Shown: positions 34,034 through 45,948 of the stretch, piece by piece
Position numbering within the stretch: position 1 is the first letter of the stretch
Layout: every line of letters starts with the position of its first letter
DNA from: an uncultured Chitinophaga sp.
Lineage (GTDB): Bacteria; Bacteroidota; Bacteroidia; Cytophagales; Cyclobacteriaceae
Assembly (NCBI GenBank): GCA_902168205.1
Contig: CABHOK010000002.1
Location: forward strand, 186,001 to 250,000
Reading direction: 5' to 3'
Length of the DNA: 64,000 nt
The notes under the pieces: model-generated
Told to the model about the DNA's origin: nothing
Seen by the model: only the letters and a program-made list of their open reading frames with translations
Database searches by the model: none
Position numbers and translations under genes: made by a program

Positions 34034-37000
34034 ATGATTAGACTTCGACTCGCTAATTTTCTATTATTCCTTCTTATCAGCTCTCCGCTCTACCCTCAGC
34101 AACAGAGCTTTAACCTCTATATGATCGGGGATGCCGGAGAACCAACCTTACCAACGAACGGCCTGCGCGAATTATTACAAAAGAAGTACGATCCGGCTGT
34201 ACCTTCGGTGGTAATTTTTCTGGGAGACAATATTTACCCCAAGGGACTCCCGGCACCCGATGAACGCGGACGCCAGCAGGCAGAAACGATCCTGAAGGCT
34301 CAGCTCAACCTGCTGCAGGGATTTAACACGGATGTATACTTTATACCCGGCAACCACGATTGGAAAAAAGGACATGCTGACGGCTGGCAACAGATAACCC
34401 ACGAGGAAGCGTGGATCGATTCGCTTCATAACGAACATATACACTTTCAACCCGAGGGCGGGTGCCCTGGTCCGGTGGAAGTTCCGCTGAGTAAAGATGC
34501 TGTGCTGGTAATTATAGACTCACAATGGTTTTTGCATCCGTGGGATAAACCGGAAGGTGACGACAGTCCCTGCGAAGTAAAGCGTCCGGAAGATGCCGTG
34601 ATACAACTGGAAGATATATTCAACCGGAATATAGGGAAGCGGGTTATCGTAGCGGCTCACCATCCGCTCTATACATATGGTGAACACGGAGGTGTATTTA
34701 CCTGGAAAGACCACTTGTTTCCGCTATTGGACCTCAACCGAGACCTATATATACCGATGCCGGGCATCGGCTCGATATACCCACTATACCGAAAATTTAT
34801 AGGTGATATACAAGACACGCCACATCCCATCTACAAACGCTATATCCAGGTGATGTCGCAGTTGCTGAAGAAGTATCCGAATACCATATATGTAAATGGT
34901 CATGAACATGCCTTGCAGTATGTCTGGAAGGACAGTGTACACTATGTTACCAGCGGATCGGGCTCTAAATATACTTTTGTAAAGCAGAAGGGATATGCCC
35001 GCTTTGCCTCGCCTGCTATGGGGTTTGTGAAGATTAATGTTTCCGGCGGAGGCGCTTCTTCGATTGATTACTTTGAGATTGGTAAAGAGCAGCCAGTCTA
35101 TAATGTTCAGGTAAAAGCCGAAGTAAATCCGACAGCACCGGGAGAACAGTCGTTACCGGATTTTTCAAAAACAGTGCGCGTGCATGCCAGCGACCGTTAC
35201 CAGGCTGGTAAATTTCATAAAAAGATATTGGGAAAAAATTACCGCGATGAATGGCGACAGGATATCGATGTGCCGGTATTTAACATTGGTGCCATTGGCG
35301 GAGGATTGAAGATATTGCAGAAGGGTGGAGGTATGCAGACGCTGTCGCTGCGCCTCGCAGATTCGTTGGAACAAGAGTATACATTACGCTCGATCGAGAA
35401 ATTCCCGGAGAAAGCTGTGCCGGAGATGTTACAGAAAACATTTGCTGCAGATCTTGTACAGGACCAGATATCGGCTGCACACCCGTATGGAGCTTTAACG
35501 GTAACGCCACTCGCAGAGGCTGCGGGTATATATCATACCAACCCGGAAGTAGTATATATACCAGATGATCCGCGCTTTGGAATCTACCGGAAGGAGTTTG
35601 CCAATACACTGATGCTGTTCGAGGAACGTCCCGCAGGCGATGCCAGCAATAAGCCGTACTTCGGAAATTCAAAGAAGATTATCAGCACCGATAAAGTATT
35701 GGAGAAGCTAATGGAAGACAACGATAATTATGTTGATCAGGAGTTTGTACTGCGTTCGCGTGTTTTTGATATTGTTATAGGAGACTGGGATCGTCACGAT
35801 GATCAGTGGCGCTGGGCATCATTCAAGGAAAAGAAAACAGAATACTATCGTCCTATACCGCGTGATCGCGACCAGGCATTGTTTGTGAGCGATGGTATAC
35901 TGGCCAAAGTATGGAGCCGTAAGTGGGCATTGCCAAAGTTTGAAGGCTTTCACGATGAAGTACGGTGGGCACCCGGCTTCATGTTCAACGCACGTTACTT
36001 CGACAGAAGTTTTCTCAATCAACCATCGGCTGCACAATGGCAGGAGCAGGCGAAGGGCGTACAACAATCATTGACAGACGAAACAATTGAGGCTGCTGTA
36101 AAGCGATTGCCTGCGGAGATATATAAACTGCATGGCGAAGAGATTGCCCGTAAATTGAAATCGCGCAGAGATCATTTGCCGGAGTATGCACAGGAGCACT
36201 ATAAATTCCTGGCGCGCGAAGTGGATGTAACGGGCTCCGACAAGCGTGAGTACTTTGATGTGCAGCAGGAACCCAATGGCGATGCAAGGGTAAGTATATA
36301 TAAGATCAGCAAGTCAGGCGAACACACCTCCAAAATATATGAACGTAAATTCCTGGCGAACGAAACCGATGAGGTACGCCTCTATGGTTTTGGTGGCGAT
36401 GATATATTTAGTTTTTCCGGCGAGGGTAAAGGAAAGATCAAGGTGCGTGTAATCGGTGGCGATGGTGGTGACTCTGTACGAAACAATGCCACGATAAAAG
36501 GCTGGCGACAACCATATAAAATATACGATGTGCCCGCAGGTATAGCCATTAACAGCAAGCGACACCTCGCTGATAAGACTTCCAACGATGCGGATGTAAA
36601 CCTGTACGATCGCAGGGCATTTCGATATCCTGTACTAGCACCGCTTGTTTACGGTACTTTTAACTATGACGATGGCATATTCCTGGGTGGAGGTTTTCTG
36701 TATACCAAGCATGGCTTCCGTAAGTTTCCGTTTAAGACACAGCATTTGTTTTTGTTCAGTTATGCTCCGCTCACCAGTTCCTATAACTTCAAGTACGATG
36801 GTCGCTTCTCGCAGGTATTTGGCAAATGGGGCGTAGCGTTAGACTTCGATGTAAAAGCGCCTAACTTCGTAAACAACTTCTTCGGCTGGGGTAATGAGAC
36901 AGTATTTAATGACGAGTTGGATGATGAACCTCAATACGAAGATCAGCTCCGGAGCTCTATTGATTACTATCGTATACGCCTCCAGCAGATAGACCTGCAA

Positions 37001-37744
37001 GCTATGCTTACACGTCCCTTCGGTAGTTCCGGTCTTTTTAAAATCGGTCCGGTATACCAGCGCGTAGAGATCGAAAGGCCTACCAAATCACCACGGTATA
37101 TTGCCGAGTATGCGGCCACCCTGGATGAACCACTGTTTGAAGTATCCAAAACATTTGCAGGACTTCGTACCGAGTGGCTCATCGATAAACGCGATAACCG
37201 TATACTCACAACACGCGGAGTGGTATTGAATCAGTCATCAACAGTATATAAAGGTCTGGAGTCGCGCGCGCATGATTTCACTTCGCATAACGCGTCCGTT
37301 GCGTTCTATCAGTCGTTCAGACTTCCGGCCCGTGTTACCTTTGCGCTTCGTGCCGGTGGCGGTATCAATACCGGTAAATATGAAATATACCAGGCACAGA
37401 TACTCGATGGTAAAACAGAACTTCGCGGCTTCCGTAAAACACGTTTTTATGGCGATCGCGATTTCTATAGCAACAATGAAGTGCGTTTAAAAATCGCCAG
37501 CTTCCGCTCCTATATATTCCCGGCATCGGTGGGTATAAATGGTTTCTTCGATGTAGGGCGGGTATGGTATAAAGACCCCAGCGGTAAAGATCCCAGCACA
37601 GCCGATGGTACATCCAGCGTATGGCATAAAGGATACGGGGGAGGAATATGGGTTACACCATTTAATTTAACCGTGCTCGCTGCTGAACTGGCGCACAGCA
37701 AAGACGGCAACATGTTTTACATACGACTCGGCTTCCTGTTCTAG
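34034..37744 (+). CDS. Metallophosphoesterase fused to an outer-membrane beta-barrel
   Basis: 1236 aa with a signal peptide (FLLFLLISSPLYPQQ). Residues 25-320 are a calcineurin-like phosphoesterase: MIGDAGEP, GDNIYPKG, GNHDWKKGH, AHHPLYTYGEHGG and NGHEHALQY supply the dinuclear metal ligands. A middle region (about 380-850) has VIGDWDRHDDQWRW. The last 350 residues are beta-rich with alternating aromatic strands and end in F (IRLGFLF), as in Omp85/surface-antigen barrels. The protein is thus probably anchored in the outer membrane with the phosphoesterase facing outward or into the periplasm. Substrate unknown. A terminator follows 36 nt after the stop. Confidence 0.85.
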   Translation: MIRLRLANFLLFLLISSPLYPQQQSFNLYMIGDAGEPTLPTNGLRELLQKKYDPAVPSVVIFLGDNIYPKGLPAPDERGRQQAETILKAQLNLLQGFNTDVYFIPGNHDWKKGHADGWQQITHEEAWIDSLHNEHIHFQPEGGCPGPVEVPLSKDAVLVIIDSQWFLHPWDKPEGDDSPCEVKRPEDAVIQLEDIFNRNIGKRVIVAAHHPLYTYGEHGGVFTWKDHLFPLLDLNRDLYIPMPGIGSIYPLYRKFIGDIQDTPHPIYKRYIQVMSQLLKKYPNTIYVNGHEHALQYVWKDSVHYVTSGSGSKYTFVKQKGYARFASPAMGFVKINVSGGGASSIDYFEIGKEQPVYNVQVKAEVNPTAPGEQSLPDFSKTVRVHASDRYQAGKFHKKILGKNYRDEWRQDIDVPVFNIGAIGGGLKILQKGGGMQTLSLRLADSLEQEYTLRSIEKFPEKAVPEMLQKTFAADLVQDQISAAHPYGALTVTPLAEAAGIYHTNPEVVYIPDDPRFGIYRKEFANTLMLFEERPAGDASNKPYFGNSKKIISTDKVLEKLMEDNDNYVDQEFVLRSRVFDIVIGDWDRHDDQWRWASFKEKKTEYYRPIPRDRDQALFVSDGILAKVWSRKWALPKFEGFHDEVRWAPGFMFNARYFDRSFLNQPSAAQWQEQAKGVQQSLTDETIEAAVKRLPAEIYKLHGEEIARKLKSRRDHLPEYAQEHYKFLAREVDVTGSDKREYFDVQQEPNGDARVSIYKISKSGEHTSKIYERKFLANETDEVRLYGFGGDDIFSFSGEGKGKIKVRVIGGDGGDSVRNNATIKGWRQPYKIYDVPAGIAINSKRHLADKTSNDADVNLYDRRAFRYPVLAPLVYGTFNYDDGIFLGGGFLYTKHGFRKFPFKTQHLFLFSYAPLTSSYNFKYDGRFSQVFGKWGVALDFDVKAPNFVNNFFGWGNETVFNDELDDEPQYEDQLRSSIDYYRIRLQQIDLQAMLTRPFGSSGLFKIGPVYQRVEIERPTKSPRYIAEYAATLDEPLFEVSKTFAGLRTEWLIDKRDNRILTTRGVVLNQSSTVYKGLESRAHDFTSHNASVAFYQSFRLPARVTFALRAGGGINTGKYEIYQAQILDGKTELRGFRKTRFYGDRDFYSNNEVRLKIASFRSYIFPASVGINGFFDVGRVWYKDPSGKDPSTADGTSSVWHKGYGGGIWVTPFNLTVLAAELAHSKDGNMFYIRLGFLF

Positions 37745-37780
37745 GATAAGGTATATATAGCTTTGTCATAAAAATAAAAT

Positions 37781-37807
37781 ACCCGGAGCACATGCTTCGG
37801 GTTTTTT
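37781..37807 (+). terminator. Rho-independent terminator
   Basis: Stem ACCCGGAGCA (37781-37790) with TGCTTCGGGT (37793-37802), including one G-T wobble, followed by six T. Closes the phosphoesterase gene. The remaining 37808-38013 gap shows nothing further. Confidence 0.8.
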
Positions 37808-38013
37808 AGTATAAAAATCATCCGATGCATTGATCAATTCTACGGATGTGTTTAACCATTGCATGTTTTTTTATTTTGCGAGTATCCGAAATGGTATTTA
37901 GTTTATTCGCTATTCTATTGTTGGGAGAACTATAGTTAACAATTGCCCTTTCTGAGTGGATTGGGCAGTTGGCATAATGGTTGGTTATATACTACACAAA
38001 CAAATAAAAAAGT

Positions 38014-38265
38014 ATGGCTGGTGTAGTGTGGCTCCTGGATAATTATAGTGAAGATGTGATTACCGGACTGGAAGTTAAGGGTTACGTTGTTCGAAGATTT
38101 TCTGCTCAGAATCAACTCCCAATGCAATATGATGAGCGCCCCGATATGATTTTCTTCTCCAAATTAACGGCTGAAACAGCAGGTTTCTTTACCAAAATCT
38201 ACCAGTTTTATCCGGGAGTGTTGGCCATGAGTGTTCCTTCGTTGTTGCCGGCAGAAGAGAAATAA
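38014..38265 (+). CDS. Small hypothetical protein
   Basis: 83 aa (starts MAGVVWLLDNYSEDVITGLEV). The pattern VVWLLDN..GLEVKGYVVRRFS..DMIFFSK..FFTKIYQFYPGVLAMSVPSL resembles the beta-alpha alternation of the first half of a receiver-like fold, but no phosphoacceptor context can be assigned. Codon use is ordinary. It could be a genuine orphan or a truncated receiver. Confidence 0.45.
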   Translation: MAGVVWLLDNYSEDVITGLEVKGYVVRRFSAQNQLPMQYDERPDMIFFSKLTAETAGFFTKIYQFYPGVLAMSVPSLLPAEEK

Positions 38266-38353
38266 CATCCTGAACTGGGATTTGGTGGCGTTTCTTTGTC
38301 TCATTGTTAGACTGACAATGGCGTTGGAATAATTGTAAATTTTTTGTCTGGTA

Positions 38354-38384
38354 TTTGTAATCAATAAAGACTTTACTATTATTG
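38354..38384 (+). promoter_or_regulatory. Candidate promoter of the thx-trp transcript
   Basis: TTTG at 38354-38357 (-33), 19-bp spacer, then TATTATTG at 38377-38384 (-7; 7 of 8 matches to TAnnTTTG). The predicted start near 38391 gives a leader of about 17 nt to the thx ATG. No comparable promoter is visible between thx and the trp leader. Confidence 0.45.
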
Positions 38385-38407
38385 CCGCATCAATTTCAAC
38401 TAAATTC

Positions 38408-38587
38408 ATGGGAAGAGGAGATAAAAAATCCAAAAAAGGTAAGCGCACAAAAGGCTCTTATGGCGTTACAAGAAGTAAAAATGCTATCAAAGCTCGTTTG
38501 AAGAGAGCAACTTCTAAAAAAGAAACATCAGAAGCTGGCGCAGCTCCTGCTAAAAAAAGAACACCTGCTAAAAAGAAAGCAGAGTAA
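38408..38587 (+). CDS. thx: 30S ribosomal protein bTHX
   Basis: A 59-aa, very basic protein that ORF finders tend to miss. The N-terminus MGRGDKKSKKGKRTKGSYG corresponds closely to the known bTHX signature (MGKGD-KKS-RGK-KGSYG), a small peptide that sits in the head of the 30S subunit. After residue 24 it carries an Ala/Lys/Thr tail (KKRTPAKKKAE) absent from the shortest homologues. The stop codon is only 7 nt before the trp leader peptide, so transcripts from the thx promoter run straight into the trp attenuator. Confidence 0.88.
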   Translation: MGRGDKKSKKGKRTKGSYGVTRSKNAIKARLKRATSKKETSEAGAAPAKKRTPAKKKAE

Positions 38588-38593
38588 TAGAAC

Positions 38594-38650
38594 ATGATAC
38601 AATTCAATAACATAGCTTGGTGGTGGCATATATCGAAACTCGATATGTGA
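38594..38650 (+). CDS. trpL: trp operon leader peptide with three consecutive Trp codons
   Basis: The 18-codon frame encodes MIQFNNIAWWWHISKLDM and stops with TGA at 38648-38650. Three TGG codons in a row (38618-38626) are extremely unusual by chance and sit directly upstream of trpE. The Trp codons immediately precede the first arm of an RNA hairpin (38627-38635). The stop codon falls at the start of the antiterminator arm. This is the geometry of ribosome-mediated attenuation: stalling at Trp codons exposes region 2, while reading to the stop masks it. Confidence 0.93.
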   Translation: MIQFNNIAWWWHISKLDM

Positions 38651-38717
38651 ACAGCCTTTTTATGTTAAAGCGATAATGCCGAAGGCCTGCTGTTCACCAG
38701 CAGGCCTTCTTTTTTTA
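38627..38717 (+). promoter_or_regulatory. Trp attenuator (pause, antiterminator and terminator stems)
   Basis: Three alternative stems are visible. 1:2 is CATATATCG (38627-38635) with CGATATGTG (38641-38649), 9 bp with one wobble. 2:3, the antiterminator, is GTGAACAGC (38647-38655) with GCTGTTCAC (38689-38697), 9 bp perfect. 3:4, the terminator, is GAAGGCCTGCTG (38681-38692) with CAGCAGGCCTTC (38698-38709), 12 bp perfect, followed by eight T. 2:3 and 3:4 share 38689-38692 and cannot coexist. The terminator would also end thx transcripts. trpE starts 55 nt after the T run. Confidence 0.92.
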
Positions 38718-38771
38718 TTTAAACGTAACTGATCGTACCTGAACAAGCCGATCGAAAAATATAAACCGAAC

Positions 38772-40172
38772 ATGAAGTATACATTAACGACCTACACCAA
38801 GAAGCTTCTGGCCGATACACTCACACCTGTTAATATATATCTGAAACTCCGCGATGTGTTTGCAGGCAGCATTCTCCTCGAAAGTTCAGATTATCATGGT
38901 CATGAAAACAGTTTGTCTTTTATATGCTGCGATCCAATCGCATCGTTCCAGGTTGTAGATAACGAAGCCTCCATTCAATATCCGGATGGCGCAGCCGAGC
39001 ACATCAAAATCTCAGGTGTAGGACACGTTACTTCATTGCTCGAAGACTTCAGAAATAAATTTGATGTTCAACAACAGGCAGGTTCCAAGTATCCTAACTG
39101 CGGACTCTTCGGATATATGTCATACGATGCCGTTCGGTTCTTTGAAACGGTAACGATCGACCAGAAGAAAAAGATGATACCGGATGTGATCTATAAACTA
39201 TACCGGTATGTAATTGTTGTCGATCACTTCTCCAACGAACTGAGTTTGTTCGAACATTCGCATCAATCCATTACACCGAGCTCGCTCGACAGAATTGAAC
39301 AGATCATTTTCAGCAATCGCTTCTCCACCTATAAGTTTTTATTGATAAATGGTGAAGAATCTAATTTTACCGATGAAGAGTTCCTTAAGGTAATCGAGAA
39401 AGGTAAGGAGCATTGTTACCGTGGCGATGTGTTCCAGATCGTTCTCTCCAGAAGATTTCAGTGCGGCTTTAAAGGAGACGAGTTTAATGTATACCGCGCG
39501 TTGCGTTCCATCAATCCATCGCCTTACCTGTTTTATTTTGATTATGGTAATTTCAAGCTGATCGGCTCGTCACCGGAAGCACAGCTGCAGGTGAAAGGAG
39601 GCAAAGCACATATATACCCTATAGCCGGTACATTCCGCAGATCCGGTAACGACCAGGAAGATGCAGCCATTGCCGAACGCCTTGCTGCCGATGAAAAAGA
39701 AAATGCTGAGCACGTAATGCTTGTAGATTTGGCACGCAACGATATGAGCAGAAATGCTTCGAGCGTACACGTAGAAGTGTTCAAGGAAATTCAATACTAC
39801 TCACACGTTATACACCTCGTGTCAAAAGTTACCGGTACATTGGCAAACGACTCTTCTATAATCGGAATGGCAGCCGATACATTTCCGGCCGGTACATTAT
39901 CCGGTGCACCCAAGCACATGGCCATGACACTGATCAATAAATACGAAAATACAAACCGGACGTTTTACGGAGGTGCCATCGGATTTATAGGCTTTGACGG
40001 ATCGTTCAATCACGCCATTATGATTCGTACATTCCTAAGTCATGAAAATAAACTGATATACCAGGCAGGAGCCGGAGTAGTATCCAAATCACAAGCCGAA
40101 AGTGAGTTGCAGGAGGTGAATAATAAACTCACTGCGCTGAGGAAAGCAGTGTTGATGGCGGAGAAGATTTGA
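38772..40172 (+). CDS. trpE: Anthranilate synthase component I
   Basis: 466-aa chorismate-utilising enzyme. The N-terminal tryptophan-binding motif LLES (35-38) with the downstream serine (SLSF) indicates feedback inhibition by Trp. The catalytic domain contains GDVFQIVLSRRF, PSPYLFYFDY, GSSPEAQL, PIAGTFRR, VMLVDLARND and AGTLSGAPKHMAM. It makes anthranilate from chorismate with ammonia from TrpG. It is the first structural gene behind the attenuator. Unusually, the partner trpG is separated from it by an inserted four-helix-bundle gene. Confidence 0.95.
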   Translation: MKYTLTTYTKKLLADTLTPVNIYLKLRDVFAGSILLESSDYHGHENSLSFICCDPIASFQVVDNEASIQYPDGAAEHIKISGVGHVTSLLEDFRNKFDVQQQAGSKYPNCGLFGYMSYDAVRFFETVTIDQKKKMIPDVIYKLYRYVIVVDHFSNELSLFEHSHQSITPSSLDRIEQIIFSNRFSTYKFLLINGEESNFTDEEFLKVIEKGKEHCYRGDVFQIVLSRRFQCGFKGDEFNVYRALRSINPSPYLFYFDYGNFKLIGSSPEAQLQVKGGKAHIYPIAGTFRRSGNDQEDAAIAERLAADEKENAEHVMLVDLARNDMSRNASSVHVEVFKEIQYYSHVIHLVSKVTGTLANDSSIIGMAADTFPAGTLSGAPKHMAMTLINKYENTNRTFYGGAIGFIGFDGSFNHAIMIRTFLSHENKLIYQAGAGVVSKSQAESELQEVNNKLTALRKAVLMAEKI

Positions 40173-40183
40173 TGGGATTGTCG

Positions 40184-40726
40184 AAGATTGGAAAATTTTA
40201 AGATTGGAAGATTTGTTAAGATTAAAAGATTTTAAGATTGAAAGATTAAAAAAAGGCCTCTTGAAATTTTTAATAAATCAAAAATTAAAAAGTTATGGCG
40301 AGGATTGAGCGGTTTGAGGACTTGGAAATTTGGAAAGAGGCCGTTGCAATAGGGTTGGATATATATGGTATAACATCAAGAGGAAAATTGGAAAGAGATT
40401 ATTCATCGAAAGATCAACTTCGAAGAGCTGCTATATCGGTGTCGAACAATATAGCGGAAGGCTTTGAGTATAATAATAACAATGTATTTATGCGCTTCCT
40501 AGGATATGCAAAAGGATCAGCCGGAGAATTACGAAGCAACCTCTTCGTACTAAAAGAAGCCGGTATAGTACCACAAGATGACTACGAACGTCTACACAAC
40601 AAACTAATCACCGCGTCAAAAAGTATAAAAGGATTCATTAACTATCTGGACGACTACGAATCCAAAAAGAAAAACAACAAACAAAAATAATTTTACAATT
40701 TTCTAATCTTAAAATCTTCCAATCTT
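40184..40726. mobile_element. Inverted-repeat-bounded element carrying an IVP-family gene, inside the trp operon
   Basis: The 36-nt left end (40184-40219, starting AAGATTGGAAAATTTTAAG) and the right end (40691-40726) are imperfect reverse complements with about 31 of 36 matches. Further AAGATTGAAAGATT-type units follow the left end. Between them lies one gene of the 23S-rRNA intervening-sequence protein family, in the operon's direction and without a terminator. No transposase and no clear target duplication are visible. The two ends would pair in the trp mRNA and enclose the gene in a long hairpin. Confidence 0.65.
40295..40690 (+). CDS. Four-helix-bundle protein (23S rRNA intervening-sequence protein / S23 family)
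   Basis: 131 aa with the family's helix pattern and motifs: FEDLEIWKEAVAIGLDIY, SSKDQLRRAAISVSNNIAEGFE, FLGYAKGSAGELRSNLFVLKEAG and a basic tail KKKNNKQK. Members were first found in Leptospira and Coxiella 23S rRNA insertions; the fold is shared with the Avd protein of diversity-generating retroelements. The cellular role is unknown. Base composition is more AT-rich than the flanking trp genes, and inverted repeats flank it, both arguing for insertion. The family being basic and pentameric in Avd suggests nucleic-acid binding. Confidence 0.88.
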   Translation: MARIERFEDLEIWKEAVAIGLDIYGITSRGKLERDYSSKDQLRRAAISVSNNIAEGFEYNNNNVFMRFLGYAKGSAGELRSNLFVLKEAGIVPQDDYERLHNKLITASKSIKGFINYLDDYESKKKNNKQK

Positions 40727-40740
40727 ATAATTCAAAAGAG

Positions 40741-41307
40741 ATGAAATTACTTGTTCTCGATAATTACGATTCATTTACATACAATCTGGTACATATAATA
40801 CGAGAGTTAGGATACGCTGTGGATATTTTTAGAAACGATAAGATCAGCGTGGCAGACGTAAAGAAATATGATAAGATATTACTATCTCCCGGGCCGGGTA
40901 TACCGGATGAAGCCGGTATTATGAAGCAGGTAATTCGCGAGTATGGCGCCTCCAAAAGTATACTAGGGGTTTGTCTCGGTCATCAGGGGATAGGAGAGGT
41001 ATACGGTGCCAAACTATATAATATACCCAAGGTGCTGCACGGAGTAACGTCCGTAGTAGAAGTGAAAGATTCTTCTGATTATCTTTTTAAAGGTGTAACC
41101 GAAAAATTCCAGGCGACACATTACCACTCGTGGGCTGTATTGCCGGAGAGCTTTACACCAGACCTGAAAATTACGGCCGTGAATGATGAAGGTTTGGTGA
41201 TGGCATTACAACATGCGAAGTATGATGTGCGAGGCGTGCAGTTCCACCCTGAGTCTGTTATGACACCGGAAGGTCCGAAGATGATCGCGAACTGGCTGAA
41301 GCATTAA
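40741..41307 (+). CDS. trpG: Anthranilate synthase component II (glutamine amidotransferase)
   Basis: 188-aa class I glutamine amidotransferase: VLDNYDSFTYNLVHIIRELG at the start, oxyanion region LSPGPGIPDEAG, nucleophile Cys in GVCLGHQGIGE, and the His/Glu pair in VQFHPESVMTPEG. It supplies ammonia to TrpE. No phosphoribosyltransferase fusion. The preceding 50 nt are the right arm of the IVP element, so trpG may rely on transcription through that element. Confidence 0.95.
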   Translation: MKLLVLDNYDSFTYNLVHIIRELGYAVDIFRNDKISVADVKKYDKILLSPGPGIPDEAGIMKQVIREYGASKSILGVCLGHQGIGEVYGAKLYNIPKVLHGVTSVVEVKDSSDYLFKGVTEKFQATHYHSWAVLPESFTPDLKITAVNDEGLVMALQHAKYDVRGVQFHPESVMTPEGPKMIANWLKH

Positions 41308-41366
41308 TATTCCGATGTCGAACACCCAACCAAGTCCAAGTCCTGATTGCTAAATTCTAATAAAGA

Positions 41367-42353
41367 ATGAAACATATATTAAACGAACTTATCGATCACC
41401 GCTCGCTTACCAAAGAAACCGCGAGACAAGTATTGGTTGATCTTGCTACAGGTAAATATAATCCGAGTCAGACAACTGCGTTCATGACGGTATATATGAT
41501 GCGCAGCATAACAGTAGACGAGTTGCAAGGCTTTCGCGATGCCATGCTGGAGTTGTGTCTGCCTGCTAAATTTGATCAACCCGTCATGGATGTGTGCGGT
41601 ACGGGCGGTGATGGTAAGAATACATTTAATATATCCACGCTTTCATCGTTTGTTGTAGCGGCAGCCGGTCAGCCGGTTGCCAAGCATGGTAACTACGGTG
41701 TTTCATCGGCCTGCGGATCTTCCAACCTGCTTGAATACTTCGGTTATAAATTTACCAGCGATGTAGATGAACTGAAGCGCAGCCTCGATCGCTCCAACAT
41801 CTGCTTTATGCATGCACCGTTGTTTCATCCGGCGATGAAAAATGTAGCACCGATACGGAAAGAGCTTGGCGTAAAAACATTCTTTAACATGTTGGGACCG
41901 ATGGTAAACCCAGCGTTCCCGAAACGACAACTCGTGGGTGTATTTAGCCTGGAGCTGGCGCGACAGTATGGATATTTATACCAGAACACCGATAAAGATT
42001 TTGTGATCCTTCACTCCATTGACGGCTATGATGAAGTATCACTTACCAGTGCATTCAAATATTTCTATAACCAGGGTGAACGCCTGGCTACTCCTGCTGA
42101 TCTTAATTTACCCCAACTAAAATACGAAGACCTGAAAGGTGGCGATACCGTAGAGGAGTCTGCCAAAGTATTTATGAAAGTATTGGAAGGTAAAGGAACG
42201 GCAGCGCAAAATGCAGCGGTGATTGCCAATGCAGGCATGGCGTTATACGCAGGCCATCAGCAGGATGGATTGCCCGCAGCTTTGCAACGCGCGAAAGAAG
42301 CGTTGGAGTCAGGCAAGGCACTTCAGTCGTTTAAGAAACTTGTACAGCCTTAA
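41367..42353 (+). CDS. trpD: Anthranilate phosphoribosyltransferase
   Basis: 328-aa enzyme of the nucleoside phosphorylase-like fold. The PRPP/Mg motif DVCGTGGDGKNTFNIST, then KHGNYGVSSACGSSNLLE, FMHAPLFHPAMKNVAPIRKELG and FNMLGPMVNP are all intact. It transfers phosphoribose from PRPP to anthranilate. Third trp structural gene, 59 nt after trpG. Confidence 0.95.
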   Translation: MKHILNELIDHRSLTKETARQVLVDLATGKYNPSQTTAFMTVYMMRSITVDELQGFRDAMLELCLPAKFDQPVMDVCGTGGDGKNTFNISTLSSFVVAAAGQPVAKHGNYGVSSACGSSNLLEYFGYKFTSDVDELKRSLDRSNICFMHAPLFHPAMKNVAPIRKELGVKTFFNMLGPMVNPAFPKRQLVGVFSLELARQYGYLYQNTDKDFVILHSIDGYDEVSLTSAFKYFYNQGERLATPADLNLPQLKYEDLKGGDTVEESAKVFMKVLEGKGTAAQNAAVIANAGMALYAGHQQDGLPAALQRAKEALESGKALQSFKKLVQP

Positions 42354-42390
42354 TTAACGTTTTACAGATATATACCAACACACCAAACGC

Positions 42391-43203
42391 ATGAATATTC
42401 TCGATAAGATCATTGAACAAAAACGCAAAGAGGTAGAAGAGCGAAAAAGCCTGTACCCGGTAAAACTGCTGGAGAAAGGAATTTACTTTTCGACACTGCC
42501 GGTTTCGATGAAGAAATATATACTGCGCGAAGACAAGACCGGTATCATTGCCGAGTTTAAGCGGCAGTCGCCATCCAAAGGTACAATCAACGCGCATGCT
42601 TCGGTTGAACGTACATCTATAGGCTATATGCAGGCCGGTGCTTCAGCACTCTCTGTACTGACAGATAAACAATTTTTCGGTGGTACGAATGATGACCTGA
42701 TGATTGCGCGGAAATTTAATTTCTGCCCGATTATCCGTAAAGATTTTACGATCGATGAATATCAGATTGTCGAAGCAAAATCCATCGGGGCCGATGCTAT
42801 ACTGTTGATTGCTGCTGTACTCGAACCGAAGCAAGTAAAAGAGTTAACCGACTTTGCACATACGTTTGGGCTGGAGGTGTTGCTGGAAGTACACGATGAA
42901 GATGAATTGAAGCGAAACCTGGAAGCAGGAGCGGACCTGATCGGTGTTAACAACCGTAATCTGAAAACATTTGAAGTCGGCATCGAAGTATCGAAACGAC
43001 TGGCATCGCTTATACCCGATTCGGCAGTAAAAGTATCTGAGAGTGGAATTTCTTCGGTGGATACTATACTTGAATTAAAGAAGTATGGCTACCGCGGATT
43101 CCTGATGGGAGAGAACTTTATGAAACACAGCAGACCCGAGCAAGCTGCCATGGAGTTTATGGACGAACTCCGAAAAACAGAAGGACTTAAACTAAATGCA
43201 TAG
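42391..43203 (+). CDS. trpC: Indole-3-glycerol phosphate synthase
   Basis: 270-aa TIM barrel. The N-terminal helix ILDKIIEQKRKEVEERK is characteristic. IIAEFKRQSPSKG (catalytic Lys), ALSVLTDKQFFGG, PIIRKDFTIDEYQI, LEVHDEDELKR, GVNNRNLKTFEV and SESGI follow in order. It cyclises CdRP to indole-3-glycerol phosphate. Separate from trpF, unlike the enterobacterial fusion. Confidence 0.95.
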   Translation: MNILDKIIEQKRKEVEERKSLYPVKLLEKGIYFSTLPVSMKKYILREDKTGIIAEFKRQSPSKGTINAHASVERTSIGYMQAGASALSVLTDKQFFGGTNDDLMIARKFNFCPIIRKDFTIDEYQIVEAKSIGADAILLIAAVLEPKQVKELTDFAHTFGLEVLLEVHDEDELKRNLEAGADLIGVNNRNLKTFEVGIEVSKRLASLIPDSAVKVSESGISSVDTILELKKYGYRGFLMGENFMKHSRPEQAAMEFMDELRKTEGLKLNA

Positions 43204-43225
43204 TATATAACTATAGTTATCGTAT

Positions 43226-43852
43226 ATGGAGGTGAAGCTGAAAGTTTGTGGAATGCGGGATGCAGAGAATCTGTTGAGTGTAGCGGCATTGCGACCAGAC
43301 TATATGGGCTTTATCTTCTATCAAAAATCACCACGCTTTGTCGGGGAAGACTTTCAGGTACCGAAATCTTTTCCGGCTGATATAAAAAAGGTAGGTGTGT
43401 TTGTAAATGAGACACCTGAAAAAATGCTTGCTATAGCCCGCATGTTGCAGCTTGATTATTTGCAGCTGCATGGAAATGAATCAGTAGAAGTTTGTGCTAC
43501 CATCAGGCAGGCAGGCATTGGTGTTATCAAGGTTTTTTCAGTAGGCGATGATTTTGATTTTGCAGTAACAAAGCCATATCAATCTTCAGTCGATTTCTTT
43601 TTGTTCGATACAAAAGGTAAATACTACGGAGGAAACGCGCAGGTATTTGATTGGACTGTGCTAAATCGATACGATCAACAAATACCATTCTTCCTCAGCG
43701 GAGGCATCACACCCGACAATGTTATAAATATAGCATCGTTAAGGATTATGAACCTTCATGCATTGGACGTAAACAGCGGAGTAGAGATACAACCCGCGCT
43801 CAAAAGCGTTGAAAAGCTAAACACACTCATTACACAAGTATCGATACTATAA
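43226..43852 (+). CDS. trpF: Phosphoribosylanthranilate isomerase
   Basis: 208-aa TIM barrel isomerase with the general-base Cys in KVCGMRDAENL, YMGFIFYQKSPRFV, KVGVFVNETPEKM, LQLHGNES, and the phosphate loop FFLSGGITPDNV with LDVNSGVE. It performs the Amadori rearrangement before TrpC. Short spacing (22 nt) to trpC. Confidence 0.94.
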   Translation: MEVKLKVCGMRDAENLLSVAALRPDYMGFIFYQKSPRFVGEDFQVPKSFPADIKKVGVFVNETPEKMLAIARMLQLDYLQLHGNESVEVCATIRQAGIGVIKVFSVGDDFDFAVTKPYQSSVDFFLFDTKGKYYGGNAQVFDWTVLNRYDQQIPFFLSGGITPDNVINIASLRIMNLHALDVNSGVEIQPALKSVEKLNTLITQVSIL

Positions 43853-43937
43853 ATCGTGGACACGTGCATAGATCACACTCACATCACCATCACACCAATC
43901 GTGTAACCAGTAGCCAGTAACCAGAAGCTTTAAGAAT

Positions 43938-45119
43938 ATGAAATATACAGTTGACCAACGCGGATACTACGGACAATTCGGGGGTGCATACATCCCTGAA
44001 ATGCTATATCCCAATGTAGAGGAACTTCGGAATAAATATCTTCAGATCATTCAGAGCGATGACTTTAAGAAGGAGTTCCAAGACTTGCTAAAGAACTATG
44101 TAGGACGCCCTACGCCTTTATACCATGCCGCACGCATGTCGGAGAAATATGGCGCCAAAATATACCTGAAGCGCGAAGACCTTTGTCATACCGGTGCACA
44201 CAAGGTAAACAATACCATAGGACAGATCCTGCTGGCGAAACGCCTGGGCAAAGAGAAGATCATTGCCGAGACAGGTGCCGGTCAGCACGGTGTTGCAACG
44301 GCTACGGTATGCGCACTGATGGGTATGGAATGTGTCGTATACATGGGCAAGGTTGATATGGAGCGGCAACGCCCCAACGTAGAACGTATGCGCATCCTGG
44401 GAGCAAAGGTTGTACCTGCCCTGAGCGGCAGCATGACATTGAAAGATGCGACCAACGAAGCGTTACGTCACTGGATCAACAATCCAACCGATACACACTA
44501 TATCATTGGTTCTGTTGTAGGTCCGCACCCGTATCCGGATATGGTGGCGAGATTTCAATCGGTGATCAGCGAAGAGATGAAAAAGCAATTGCAGGAAGAG
44601 ATCGGTAATCCGTTCCCTGACTATGTATTTGCCTGCGTAGGTGGCGGCAGTAATGCAGCCGGTGCATTCTATCATTTCCTCGATGATGAGCATGTAAATT
44701 TAGTGGGTGTGGAAGCGGCTGGTAAAGGTGTTGACTCAGGCGAGTCTGCGGCAACAACCGCGCTTGGAAAAGTAGGTGTACTGCATGGCAGTAAGATGTT
44801 GCTGATGCAAACTGAAGATGGACAGGTAGTGGAACCTCATTCCATATCGGCAGGTTTGGACTATCCCGGAATAGGTCCGATGCATGCACACTTGTTTGAG
44901 ACAGGCCGCGTAAAATTTGTAAGCGCTACCGATGATGAAGCGATGAAAGCCGGCATCGAGCTGGGTAAACTGGAAGGAATTATACCGGCTATAGAATCCG
45001 CTCACGCATTGGCTGCACTTAATCAGTTTGAATTTGATAAGGATGATGTTGTGGTCGTTAATCTTTCCGGAAGAGGCGATAAAGACCTGGAGACCTATAT
45101 CCGATGGGGTAAATATTAA
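43938..45119 (+). CDS. trpB: Tryptophan synthase beta chain
   Basis: 393-aa PLP enzyme of the TrpB1 type. The PLP lysine is in [10 protein letters not shown], the substrate loop [13 protein letters not shown], the phosphate-binding loop GGGSNAAG, and the late region [11 protein letters not shown] and LSGRGDKD. It joins indole to serine in an alpha2beta2 complex with TrpA, encoded 52 nt downstream. Confidence 0.96.
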
Positions 45120-45171
45120 CAGTATACTATTTATCCGAAATCTTCAGTCTTAAACATCAACCTCAGAAAAA

Positions 45172-45948
45172 ATGAAAAACAGAATAACCGAACTATTCGC
45201 TAAAAAGAAAGGAAATATATTAAATGTATACTATACGGCTGGCTTCCCGGCTTTGAACGATACGGTACGCATAGCCCAGGCGTTGGAGAAGGCTGGTGCC
45301 GATATCATTGAGATCGGTATACCGTTTTCCGATCCGGTTGCCGATGGACCTACCATCCAGGAGAGTAACAAGATCGCGCTTGACAACGGCATGACATTAC
45401 ACCTGCTGCTGGAGCAGGTAAAGGAGATACGCAAAACCGTATCGCTCCCTATTATACTCATGGGCTATATCAATCCCGTGATTCAATATGGTGTTGAGAA
45501 GTTTGCCAAAGATGCTTCTGCATTGGGAGTGGATGGTGTTATTATACCCGACCTGCCGCTGCATGAGTTTGAGGAACAGTATAAAGCACTTTTCAAATCG
45601 CTGAACCTCTGCAATACGTTTCTGATATCACCCACAACATCGGAAGAGCGCATTCGCAAGATTGATGCTGCCACAGAAGGATTTATATATGCGGTATCAG
45701 CATCCAGTATAACCGGTGCCAAAGGCGATTTCTCTTCTGAACAAGTGCAGTATTTTGAACGTCTGCAGAACCTGAAACTGAAGAATCCGTTCCTGATCGG
45801 ATTCGGTATATCCAATCATTCAACGTTTGCCAAAGCCTCGCAGTATAGTGCTGGTGCTATTGTAGGGAGTGCTTTCATTAATTTGTTGCGCGAAGCGAAA
45901 GATATATCGGCTGATGTTGATGCATTCGTCAAGTCACTGAAAAAGTAA
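45172..45948 (+). CDS. trpA: Tryptophan synthase alpha chain
   Basis: 258-aa TIM barrel. Catalytic Glu is in DIIEIGIPFSDPVADGP and catalytic Asp in LGVDGVIIPDLPLHE, followed by FLISPTTSEERI, SSITGAKG and IGFGISNHSTFAKA. It releases indole from indole-3-glycerol phosphate and channels it to TrpB. Confidence 0.95.
   Translation: MKNRITELFAKKKGNILNVYYTAGFPALNDTVRIAQALEKAGADIIEIGIPFSDPVADGPTIQESNKIALDNGMTLHLLLEQVKEIRKTVSLPIILMGYINPVIQYGVEKFAKDASALGVDGVIIPDLPLHEFEEQYKALFKSLNLCNTFLISPTTSEERIRKIDAATEGFIYAVSASSITGAKGDFSSEQVQYFERLQNLKLKNPFLIGFGISNHSTFAKASQYSAGAIVGSAFINLLREAKDISADVDAFVKSLKK

Follow-up and report, generated by a model that had tools for sequence, protein, structure and literature searches.

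A predicted tryptophan attenuator located directly behind thx in a Bacteroidota genome

The window analysed here is a 64,000-nucleotide (nt) stretch of DNA from an uncultured Chitinophaga sp. of the phylum Bacteroidota, order Cytophagales (contig CABHOK010000002.1, positions 186,001–250,000), and carries a trp operon. The 124-nt stretch at 38594–38717, just upstream of the first gene, trpE, is best read as a ribosome-mediated trp attenuator of the Bacteroidetes leader-peptide kind, which appears to lack a promoter of its own, having lost it, and to be transcribed as part of the mRNA of thx, a ribosomal protein gene. We assign this reading a probability of roughly 0.87. An earlier reading made without database searches, termed the sequence-only reading below, had already proposed an attenuator. 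The present analysis supports that proposal and finds that the kind is not new.

A tryptophan leader and alternative RNA stems precede trpE

The leader peptide open reading frame (ORF), MIQFNNIAWWWHISKLDM followed by a stop codon, occupies 38594–38650 of the forward strand, which also carries the other features of the window described below. It begins 6 nt past the stop codon of thx, and both its coordinates and its reading were confirmed base by base. Three tandem Trp codons, TGG TGG TGG (38618–38626), constitute the putative sensor of this 18-codon leader, which the sequence-only reading had placed correctly before trpE.

The RNA from the Trp codons onward can pair in alternative ways. An inner 1:2 hairpin pairs 38627–38636 with 38640–38649 in the minimum-energy fold and in alignment A1 (described below); its shorter version, 38627–38635/38641–38649, has nine paired positions including one G-U. 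The minimum-energy fold also contains a longer 1:2 structure (38608–38667), in which 38608–38615 pair with 38660–38667 and Trp-codon bases within 38619–38624 pair with bases within 38651–38656. Without a ribosome, this extended structure buries antiterminator strand 2 (38647–38660), which includes the leader stop codon TGA (38648–38650). Strand 3 (38681–38697) is composed of the 5' arm and loop of the terminator and is the partner of strand 2 when the RNA is folded with a ribosome masked at the Trp codons. The segment 38647–38655, GTGAACAGC, is the exact reverse complement of 38689–38697. The antiterminator extends from these nine perfect pairs to 14 bp, with 38647–38660 pairing with 38681–38685 and 38689–38697 across a 3-nt bulge. 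The intrinsic terminator (38681–38716) lies between the leader and trpE and consists of a perfect 12-bp hairpin (38681–38692/38698–38709), a TTCAC loop, and a run of T residues. The 124-nt stretch folds to −46.9 kcal/mol, compared with a mean of −25.15 for shuffled sequences (z = −6.06), and none of 200 shuffles is as low.

The 9-bp antiterminator and the 12-bp terminator lie exactly where the sequence-only reading had located them, but the T run comprises seven residues (38710–38716), not eight. The short 1:2 hairpin that it named has only 3 nt in common with the antiterminator strand, and the two can nearly coexist. The short hairpin is replaced, as the element that excludes the antiterminator, by the longer 1:2 structure of the minimum-energy fold.

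The leader is conserved upstream of trpE

The string TGGTGGTGG occurs once in the window against 0.21 expected, and at least once in 20 of 100 shuffles, so that alone it is weak evidence. GCNTGGTGGTGGCAY (AWWWH) has a single occurrence in the 7.3-Mb genome. The decisive evidence that the leader is more than chance is its conservation. The sample contains 166 distinct Bacteroidota loci upstream of trpE and is non-random. It is built from 80 best TrpE matches from titled genomes and 90 added loci from the window's own genome and relatives, minus four duplicates. Among the additions, 40 are mostly one per genus among the matches listed, and 20 further loci were hand-picked among the near relatives listed. 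The duplicates are four pairs of identifiers that each denote one contig (L004 and L084, L155 and L007, L157 and L008, and L149 and L038); L085 and L086 have a common leader region but come from different genomes. Three of the 166 loci have less than 800 nt of upstream sequence.

A mini-ORF with adjacent Trp codons (WW) lies within 450 nt upstream of trpE in 76 of the 80 best-match loci, and two of the other four (L030 and L039) possess a WW leader further upstream, at −500. Over the whole sample, an ATG-started WW leader is present within 800 nt upstream of trpE at 159 of the 166 distinct loci, so that a short Trp-rich ORF directly upstream of the trp operon is a conserved feature. Three adjacent TGG codons occur in 149 of these 159 leaders and two in the other ten. 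By eye, L044 and L052 contain WWW leaders that start with TTG or GTG, and no Trp leader was seen in the regions upstream of trpE in L013 and L136. Interrupted Trp runs, still accompanied by a hairpin and a T run, were seen by eye in L115 (WHW), L129 (WYW), and L016 (a single W).

Pairing and two-sided changes in the stems

A strict scan finds a terminator in 132 of the 143 loci that have a leader. The resulting 132-locus set derives from 150 loci, of which seven lack an ATG-started WW ORF and 11 more lack a strict terminator. In each locus, the stretch from the Trp codons to the terminator was paired with the terminator 5' arm and loop. This 2:3 pairing beats 95% of the locus's own dinucleotide shuffles in 97 of the 132 loci, where about seven are expected, and reaches p ≤ 0.01 in 50. 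Two duplicate pairs are still counted double here, as they are in the 150-locus thx counts, the own-box count (80 of 98), and the 132-locus mask counts given below; without duplicates, the significant pairings number 95 of 130.

Two alignments reveal how the stems vary. A1 comprises 22 sequences with the window's antiterminator type, and A2 comprises 12 sequences with another antiterminator, formed by GATCGG or GAATCGG with CCGATC or CCGATTC. In A1, hairpin 1:2 is paired in 91.4% of cells, with ten two-sided cells against 5.4 in shuffles and two-sided changes in two of nine pairs. The A1 terminator is paired in 99.6% of cells, with nine two-sided cells against 2.8 and two-sided changes in three of 12 pairs. 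The A1 antiterminator is 100% paired (eight of eight scored pairs in 22 of 22 sequences), and seven of its eight pairs never vary. In columns 98–101, the part of the A1 terminator common to the antiterminator, the 5' side is invariant, as expected if it serves both stems; the 3' side varies solely by a replacement of G-C with G-U, in five of 22 sequences. The A2 antiterminator, although wholly different in sequence, is 92.9% paired and has six two-sided cells against 2.5 in shuffles, and the A2 hairpin 1:2 has 12 against 4.7. The sequence-only reading had proposed to look for the mini-ORF and the stems in relatives. Both are there, with two-sided changes in the 1:2 hairpin, in the terminator, and, in A2, in the antiterminator.

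Predicted folds switch with ribosome position

Switching was modelled by cutting the RNA directly after strand 3, omitting the bases covered by a ribosome, and folding the remainder. With no ribosome, the window's RNA adopts the long 1:2 structure and the antiterminator is absent. With the A site on Trp codon 1 or 3, the 14-bp antiterminator forms. With the A site on the stop codon, the minimum-energy fold contains weak local pairs only and no antiterminator. These masked folds of the window display the selection between stems that the sequence-only reading had predicted for ribosomes at the Trp codons or at the stop codon.

The partition function gives the window 5.5 expected 2:3 pairs with no ribosome, 13.2–13.3 with a ribosome at the Trp codons, and 7.6 with a ribosome at the stop codon. 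The corresponding means over the 132 loci are 5.2, 13.0–13.2, and 3.4. Strand 2 and the stop codon share bases in 108 of the 132 loci. In the folding model, the antiterminator and the terminator are mutually exclusive, and release of the antiterminator depends on a ribosome at the control codons, albeit imperfectly.

The leader follows thx and lacks a promoter motif of its own

The thx gene (38408–38587) encodes 30S ribosomal protein THX of 59 residues. Residues 1–25 match the TIGR04560 equivalog with 38.8 bits against a cut-off of 26, and the protein has no Pfam match. A sigma-A promoter is predicted upstream at 38354–38384 from its sequence motif, with a −33 element TTTG (38354–38357), a 19-nt spacer, and a −7 box TATTATTG (38377–38384). 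Its transcription start is predicted near 38389, a placement modelled on F. psychrophilum, where the TAnnTTTG box occupies −12 to −5 (PMC9723704).

The gene thx lies directly upstream of the leader, an arrangement called tight here, in 36 of the first 150 loci and in 20 of the 20 added near relatives. In eight of the 150 it is further off, either by 39–218 nt or, in L115, before the leader without WW; the other 106 showed no thx in the upstream stretch examined, which measured at most 800 nt. In 53 distinct tight loci, the gap between thx and leader spans −4 to 18 nt when the nearest usable ATG is taken, and up to 28 nt with the first in-frame ATG; a 4-nt overlap is present in L165. The leader is in frame with thx in 39 of these 53 loci despite the varying gap, which may be a relic of in-frame joining. 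The tight form, 35 of 106 TrpE sequences, constitutes one side of one branch with a Shimodaira–Hasegawa-like approximate likelihood ratio (SH-aLRT) support of 100 in a quick, midpoint-rooted tree. The 40 one-per-genus loci and the 20 added near relatives are not part of this tree.

Promoter motifs differ between the two arrangements. The interval 20–110 nt before the first TGG was scanned for the Bacteroidota −7 box TANNTTTG, as the leader's own box. Of 98 loci without thx, 80 carry it there (10.1 expected), as do two of seven loci with loosely placed thx (0.6 expected). In the same interval it is found in none of the 36 tight loci (0.3 expected) and none of the 20 added ones. L065 and L076 had too little sequence and were left out of this count. 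Upstream of thx, the motif TTTG-N18-20-TANNNTTG is present within 100 nt in 51 of the 53 distinct tight loci, where 0.22 are expected. Two further intervals, from the thx start to the first TGG and from the Trp codons to trpE, lack the two-box motif in all 53. Duplicates are excluded from both 53-locus two-box counts and from the 166-locus leader count. Since a two-box promoter motif lies upstream of thx and none nearer to trpE, the simplest reading, as judged by sequence motifs, is that the thx promoter drives the trp operon in the window's clade. The sequence-only reading had missed that the leader follows thx at 6 nt and has no promoter motif of its own. The thx mRNA is then probably also ended by the attenuator. 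Reinitiation by ribosomes coming from thx would fit the spacing, including the overlap in L165.

Among the 83 motif-bearing loci outside the tight clade, two of which are loose, the median distance from the end of the −7 box to the leader ATG is 12 nt. In 77 of the 83 this distance is 5–20 nt, which predicts a very short 5' untranslated region (UTR). With the box at −12 to −5, as placed in F. psychrophilum (PMC9723704), this median corresponds to a 5' UTR of about 8 nt. In 37 of the 83 (for example, L011 and L012), the box ends 5–10 nt before the ATG, and a near-leaderless leader mRNA is predicted.

The same attenuator could instead have its own leader promoter inside thx and be translated independently, the tight spacing reflecting compaction only. 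We regard this as unlikely. Calls that are based on motifs would overlook any promoter lacking these boxes, and the shared frame could have been inherited and be no sign of coupling. However, the two-box motif is absent from the thx start to the first TGG in all 53 loci and present upstream of thx in 51, and, with gaps of −4 to 28 nt, there is hardly space for a promoter downstream of thx.

Strength of the assignment

Several observations weigh against an attenuator carried on the thx mRNA. In 35 of the 132 loci, the 2:3 pairing falls short of significance at the 0.05 level. In the window's type, the antiterminator is nearly invariant, so that covariation cannot test it there. The A2 terminator shows no clear excess of two-sided cells (five against 3.0, a value reached by 54 of 500 shuffles), and the numbers of two-sided pairs are within the shuffle range for A1 1:2, A2 1:2, the A2 antiterminator, and the A2 terminator; covariation support therefore rests on the cells, the A1 terminator, and the slid controls. 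At least five 2:3 pairs are expected without a ribosome in 55 of the 132 loci and with a ribosome at the stop codon in 29, and the window's modelled stop value of 7.6 exceeds that of a clean switch. At equilibrium, the terminator is the structure adopted by the full transcript in all three states tested (no ribosome, third Trp codon, and stop codon). The switch must therefore be kinetic, with timing deciding the outcome. Kinetic timing is accepted as decisive in known attenuators. As to the placement on the thx mRNA, all promoter calls are motif-based, the single box TANNTTTG occurs between the Trp codons and trpE in four of the 53 tight loci, and the TrpE tree is a quick one in which the long rows L007 and L008 meet. 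The Trp response, co-transcription with thx, and reinitiation are inferred.

A second alternative is that the leader acts as an arrest peptide. TnaC is such a ribosome-arrest peptide and senses free tryptophan. A TnaC-like leader would respond to free tryptophan, whereas the classical leader responds to ribosomes stalled at the Trp codons for want of Trp-tRNA. Within groups, the residues flanking the Trp codons are conserved, such as AWWWH in the window's clade, as those of such a peptide would be. However, little beyond the Trp run is common across groups (AWWWH, TWWWN in many Flavobacteriaceae, YWWWH, IWLWW, and AWYWH), and the C-terminal parts differ. The local conservation is explicable by the RNA stems that these residues encode, and the position of the stop codon inside strand 2 in 108 of the 132 loci is what the classical model requires. 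An arrest peptide is accordingly quite improbable.

Finally, the hairpin might be an ordinary thx terminator, the WWW ORF a product of chance, and the trpE promoter located further downstream, as thx ending 6 nt before the ORF, the good quality of the hairpin as a terminator, the recurrence of TGGTGGTGG in 20 of 100 window shuffles, and the single TANNTTTG box before trpE in four clade loci would allow, but this combination has almost no chance of being right given the WW leader kept in 159 of 166 distinct loci, 100 WW-leader loci in which no thx was found upstream (one duplicate removed from the count), the significant 2:3 pairing in 97 of 132, and the two-box motif in none of 53 clade loci between the Trp codons and trpE. 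Conservation contradicts both the chance ORF and the plain thx terminator.

Proposed mechanism and implications

A mechanism can be proposed on the basis of what was observed, namely the RNA elements, the alternative pairings that folding predicts for them, and their conservation. RNA polymerase would start upstream of thx, as the promoter motifs suggest, and transcribe thx and then the leader. The ribosome on the leader ORF has probably just finished thx and would restart 6 nt further on. When Trp-tRNA is plentiful, this ribosome would reach the stop codon inside strand 2 and mask the strand. The terminator could then fold, and the transcript would end as thx plus leader. When Trp-tRNA is short, the ribosome would stall on the three Trp codons and open 1:2. 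Strand 2 would then pair with the 5' arm and loop of the terminator before the 3' arm is made, and transcription would continue into trpE and onward. With no translating ribosome, 1:2 would stay closed and termination would be expected.

A stronger proposal is that the trp attenuator constitutes the 3' end of a ribosomal-protein unit, in which thx supplies the leader with both its promoter and, by termination-reinitiation, its ribosomes. We consider the odds on this proposal to be about even. If it is true, each round of thx synthesis would also test the charging of Trp-tRNA, tying Trp synthesis to ribosome production, and a ribosome would be in place on the leader early enough with no need of a Shine-Dalgarno site. 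The arrangement would provide a natural test of ribosome hand-over from a finished gene to an attenuator leader.

Leader-peptide control of trpE appears nearly universal among the sampled loci, a non-random set, although the public RNA model described below reaches its cut-off in three of 16 loci and one of 59 genomes. Control of this kind implies that transcription and translation are coupled in bacteria that are said to lack Shine-Dalgarno sequences, a statement made for F. psychrophilum in a passage of PMC9723704.

The downstream operon and other leaders

The first gene past the terminator is trpE (38772–40172; PF00425 and PF04715). ORFs for trpG, trpD, trpC, trpF, trpB, and trpA follow at 40741–45948, with matches to PF00117, PF00591, PF00218, PF00697, PF00291, and PF00290, respectively. 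A 3-deoxy-D-arabinoheptulosonate 7-phosphate (DAHP) synthase gene is also located downstream with the trp genes on the same strand. Gene order and strand suggest that all trp genes are co-transcribed. Between trpE and trpG, 40295–40690 encodes a four-helix-bundle protein of the 23S rRNA intervening-sequence protein (IVP) family (PF05635).

Similar leaders occur elsewhere. In the hisG region of the window's own genome (L174, reverse strand), MNNNITSGLHHHHHGNNTMRGTAF, which ends at a stop codon and contains five adjacent His codons, is followed by a strong hairpin and T5; this region upstream of hisG is a probable His attenuator, as judged by its sequence. Two WW ORFs are present upstream of trpE in nine loci, three of which (L113, L125, and L131) contain a sound terminator behind both ORFs. 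L113 and L125 have two complete Trp leader-terminator modules in series, and both modules form an antiterminator pairing of their own; the first module of L131 pairs more weakly. The first terminator is weak in L060 and was not found in L071, and the two WW ORFs of L114 are possibly serial.

Comparison with known systems

Covariance-model scans returned two matches in 36000–42000 (E ≤ 1) and ten in 38560–38800 (E ≤ 10). A T-box leader is not among them, nor does either scan contain a match that would assign the element to another described RNA family. RF00513, the enterobacterial trp leader (trpL), is likewise not among the ten. The window's element shares with enterobacterial trpL a short tandem-Trp leader, the 1:2, 2:3, and 3:4 stems, and a stop codon near strand 2. 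It differs in having three Trp codons instead of two and in a leader ORF that follows the stop codon of another gene.

Near-leaderless trpL genes occur in other phyla, for example in Sinorhizobium. The loci outside the tight clade resemble them in their very short predicted 5' UTR, whereas the predicted transcript of the window's clade has the leader as its second ORF.

The element belongs to a kind already known in Bacteroidota, Rfam RF01692 'Bacteroid-trp', or 'Bacteroidete tryptophan peptide leader RNA', which Weinberg et al. 2010 list in their Table 1 (PMC2864571). In a 241-base scan (38560–38800), RF01692 matches the window with 27 bits and E = 0.35, below its gathering cut-off of 49 bits; positions 1–131 of 131 are aligned and the UGG codons are in register. 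The 6-kb scan of 36000–42000 contains no RF01692 match at E ≤ 1. Three of 16 related loci scanned (L011, L064, and L080) pass the cut-off at the equivalent place. Under stricter filters, 13 of 59 genomes have a match at E ≤ 1 and one passes the cut-off, and the window's own genome has no match. By their coordinates, the weak matches of G002, G005, G006, and G025 lie at trpE.

Of two papers on Flavobacterium psychrophilum (PMC6414381 and PMC9723704), one notes Bacteroid-trp upstream of the trp operon, and the other (PMC9723704) reports clues for leader-peptide attenuation of amino-acid operons. This species belongs to another order of the phylum, and the relevant passages of the two papers (PMC9723704, PMC6414381) do not mention thx or the window's order. 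Among the papers listed in searches of the open-access literature, there was no report of this attenuator in Cytophagales and none of a linkage between thx and trp. The sequence-only reading had left it open whether the attenuator is documented for the lineage. No open-access paper was found for the order, but the kind is documented for the phylum by RF01692.

The window's element and RF01692 share the phylum, the place upstream of trpE, and the order of parts (UGG run, stem, and start of the terminator). The window's form differs in its stem sequences, in its place behind thx, and in the absence of a −7 box of its own. What was not found in the open-access literature searched is the arrangement, with a leader 6 nt behind thx and no promoter motif of its own.
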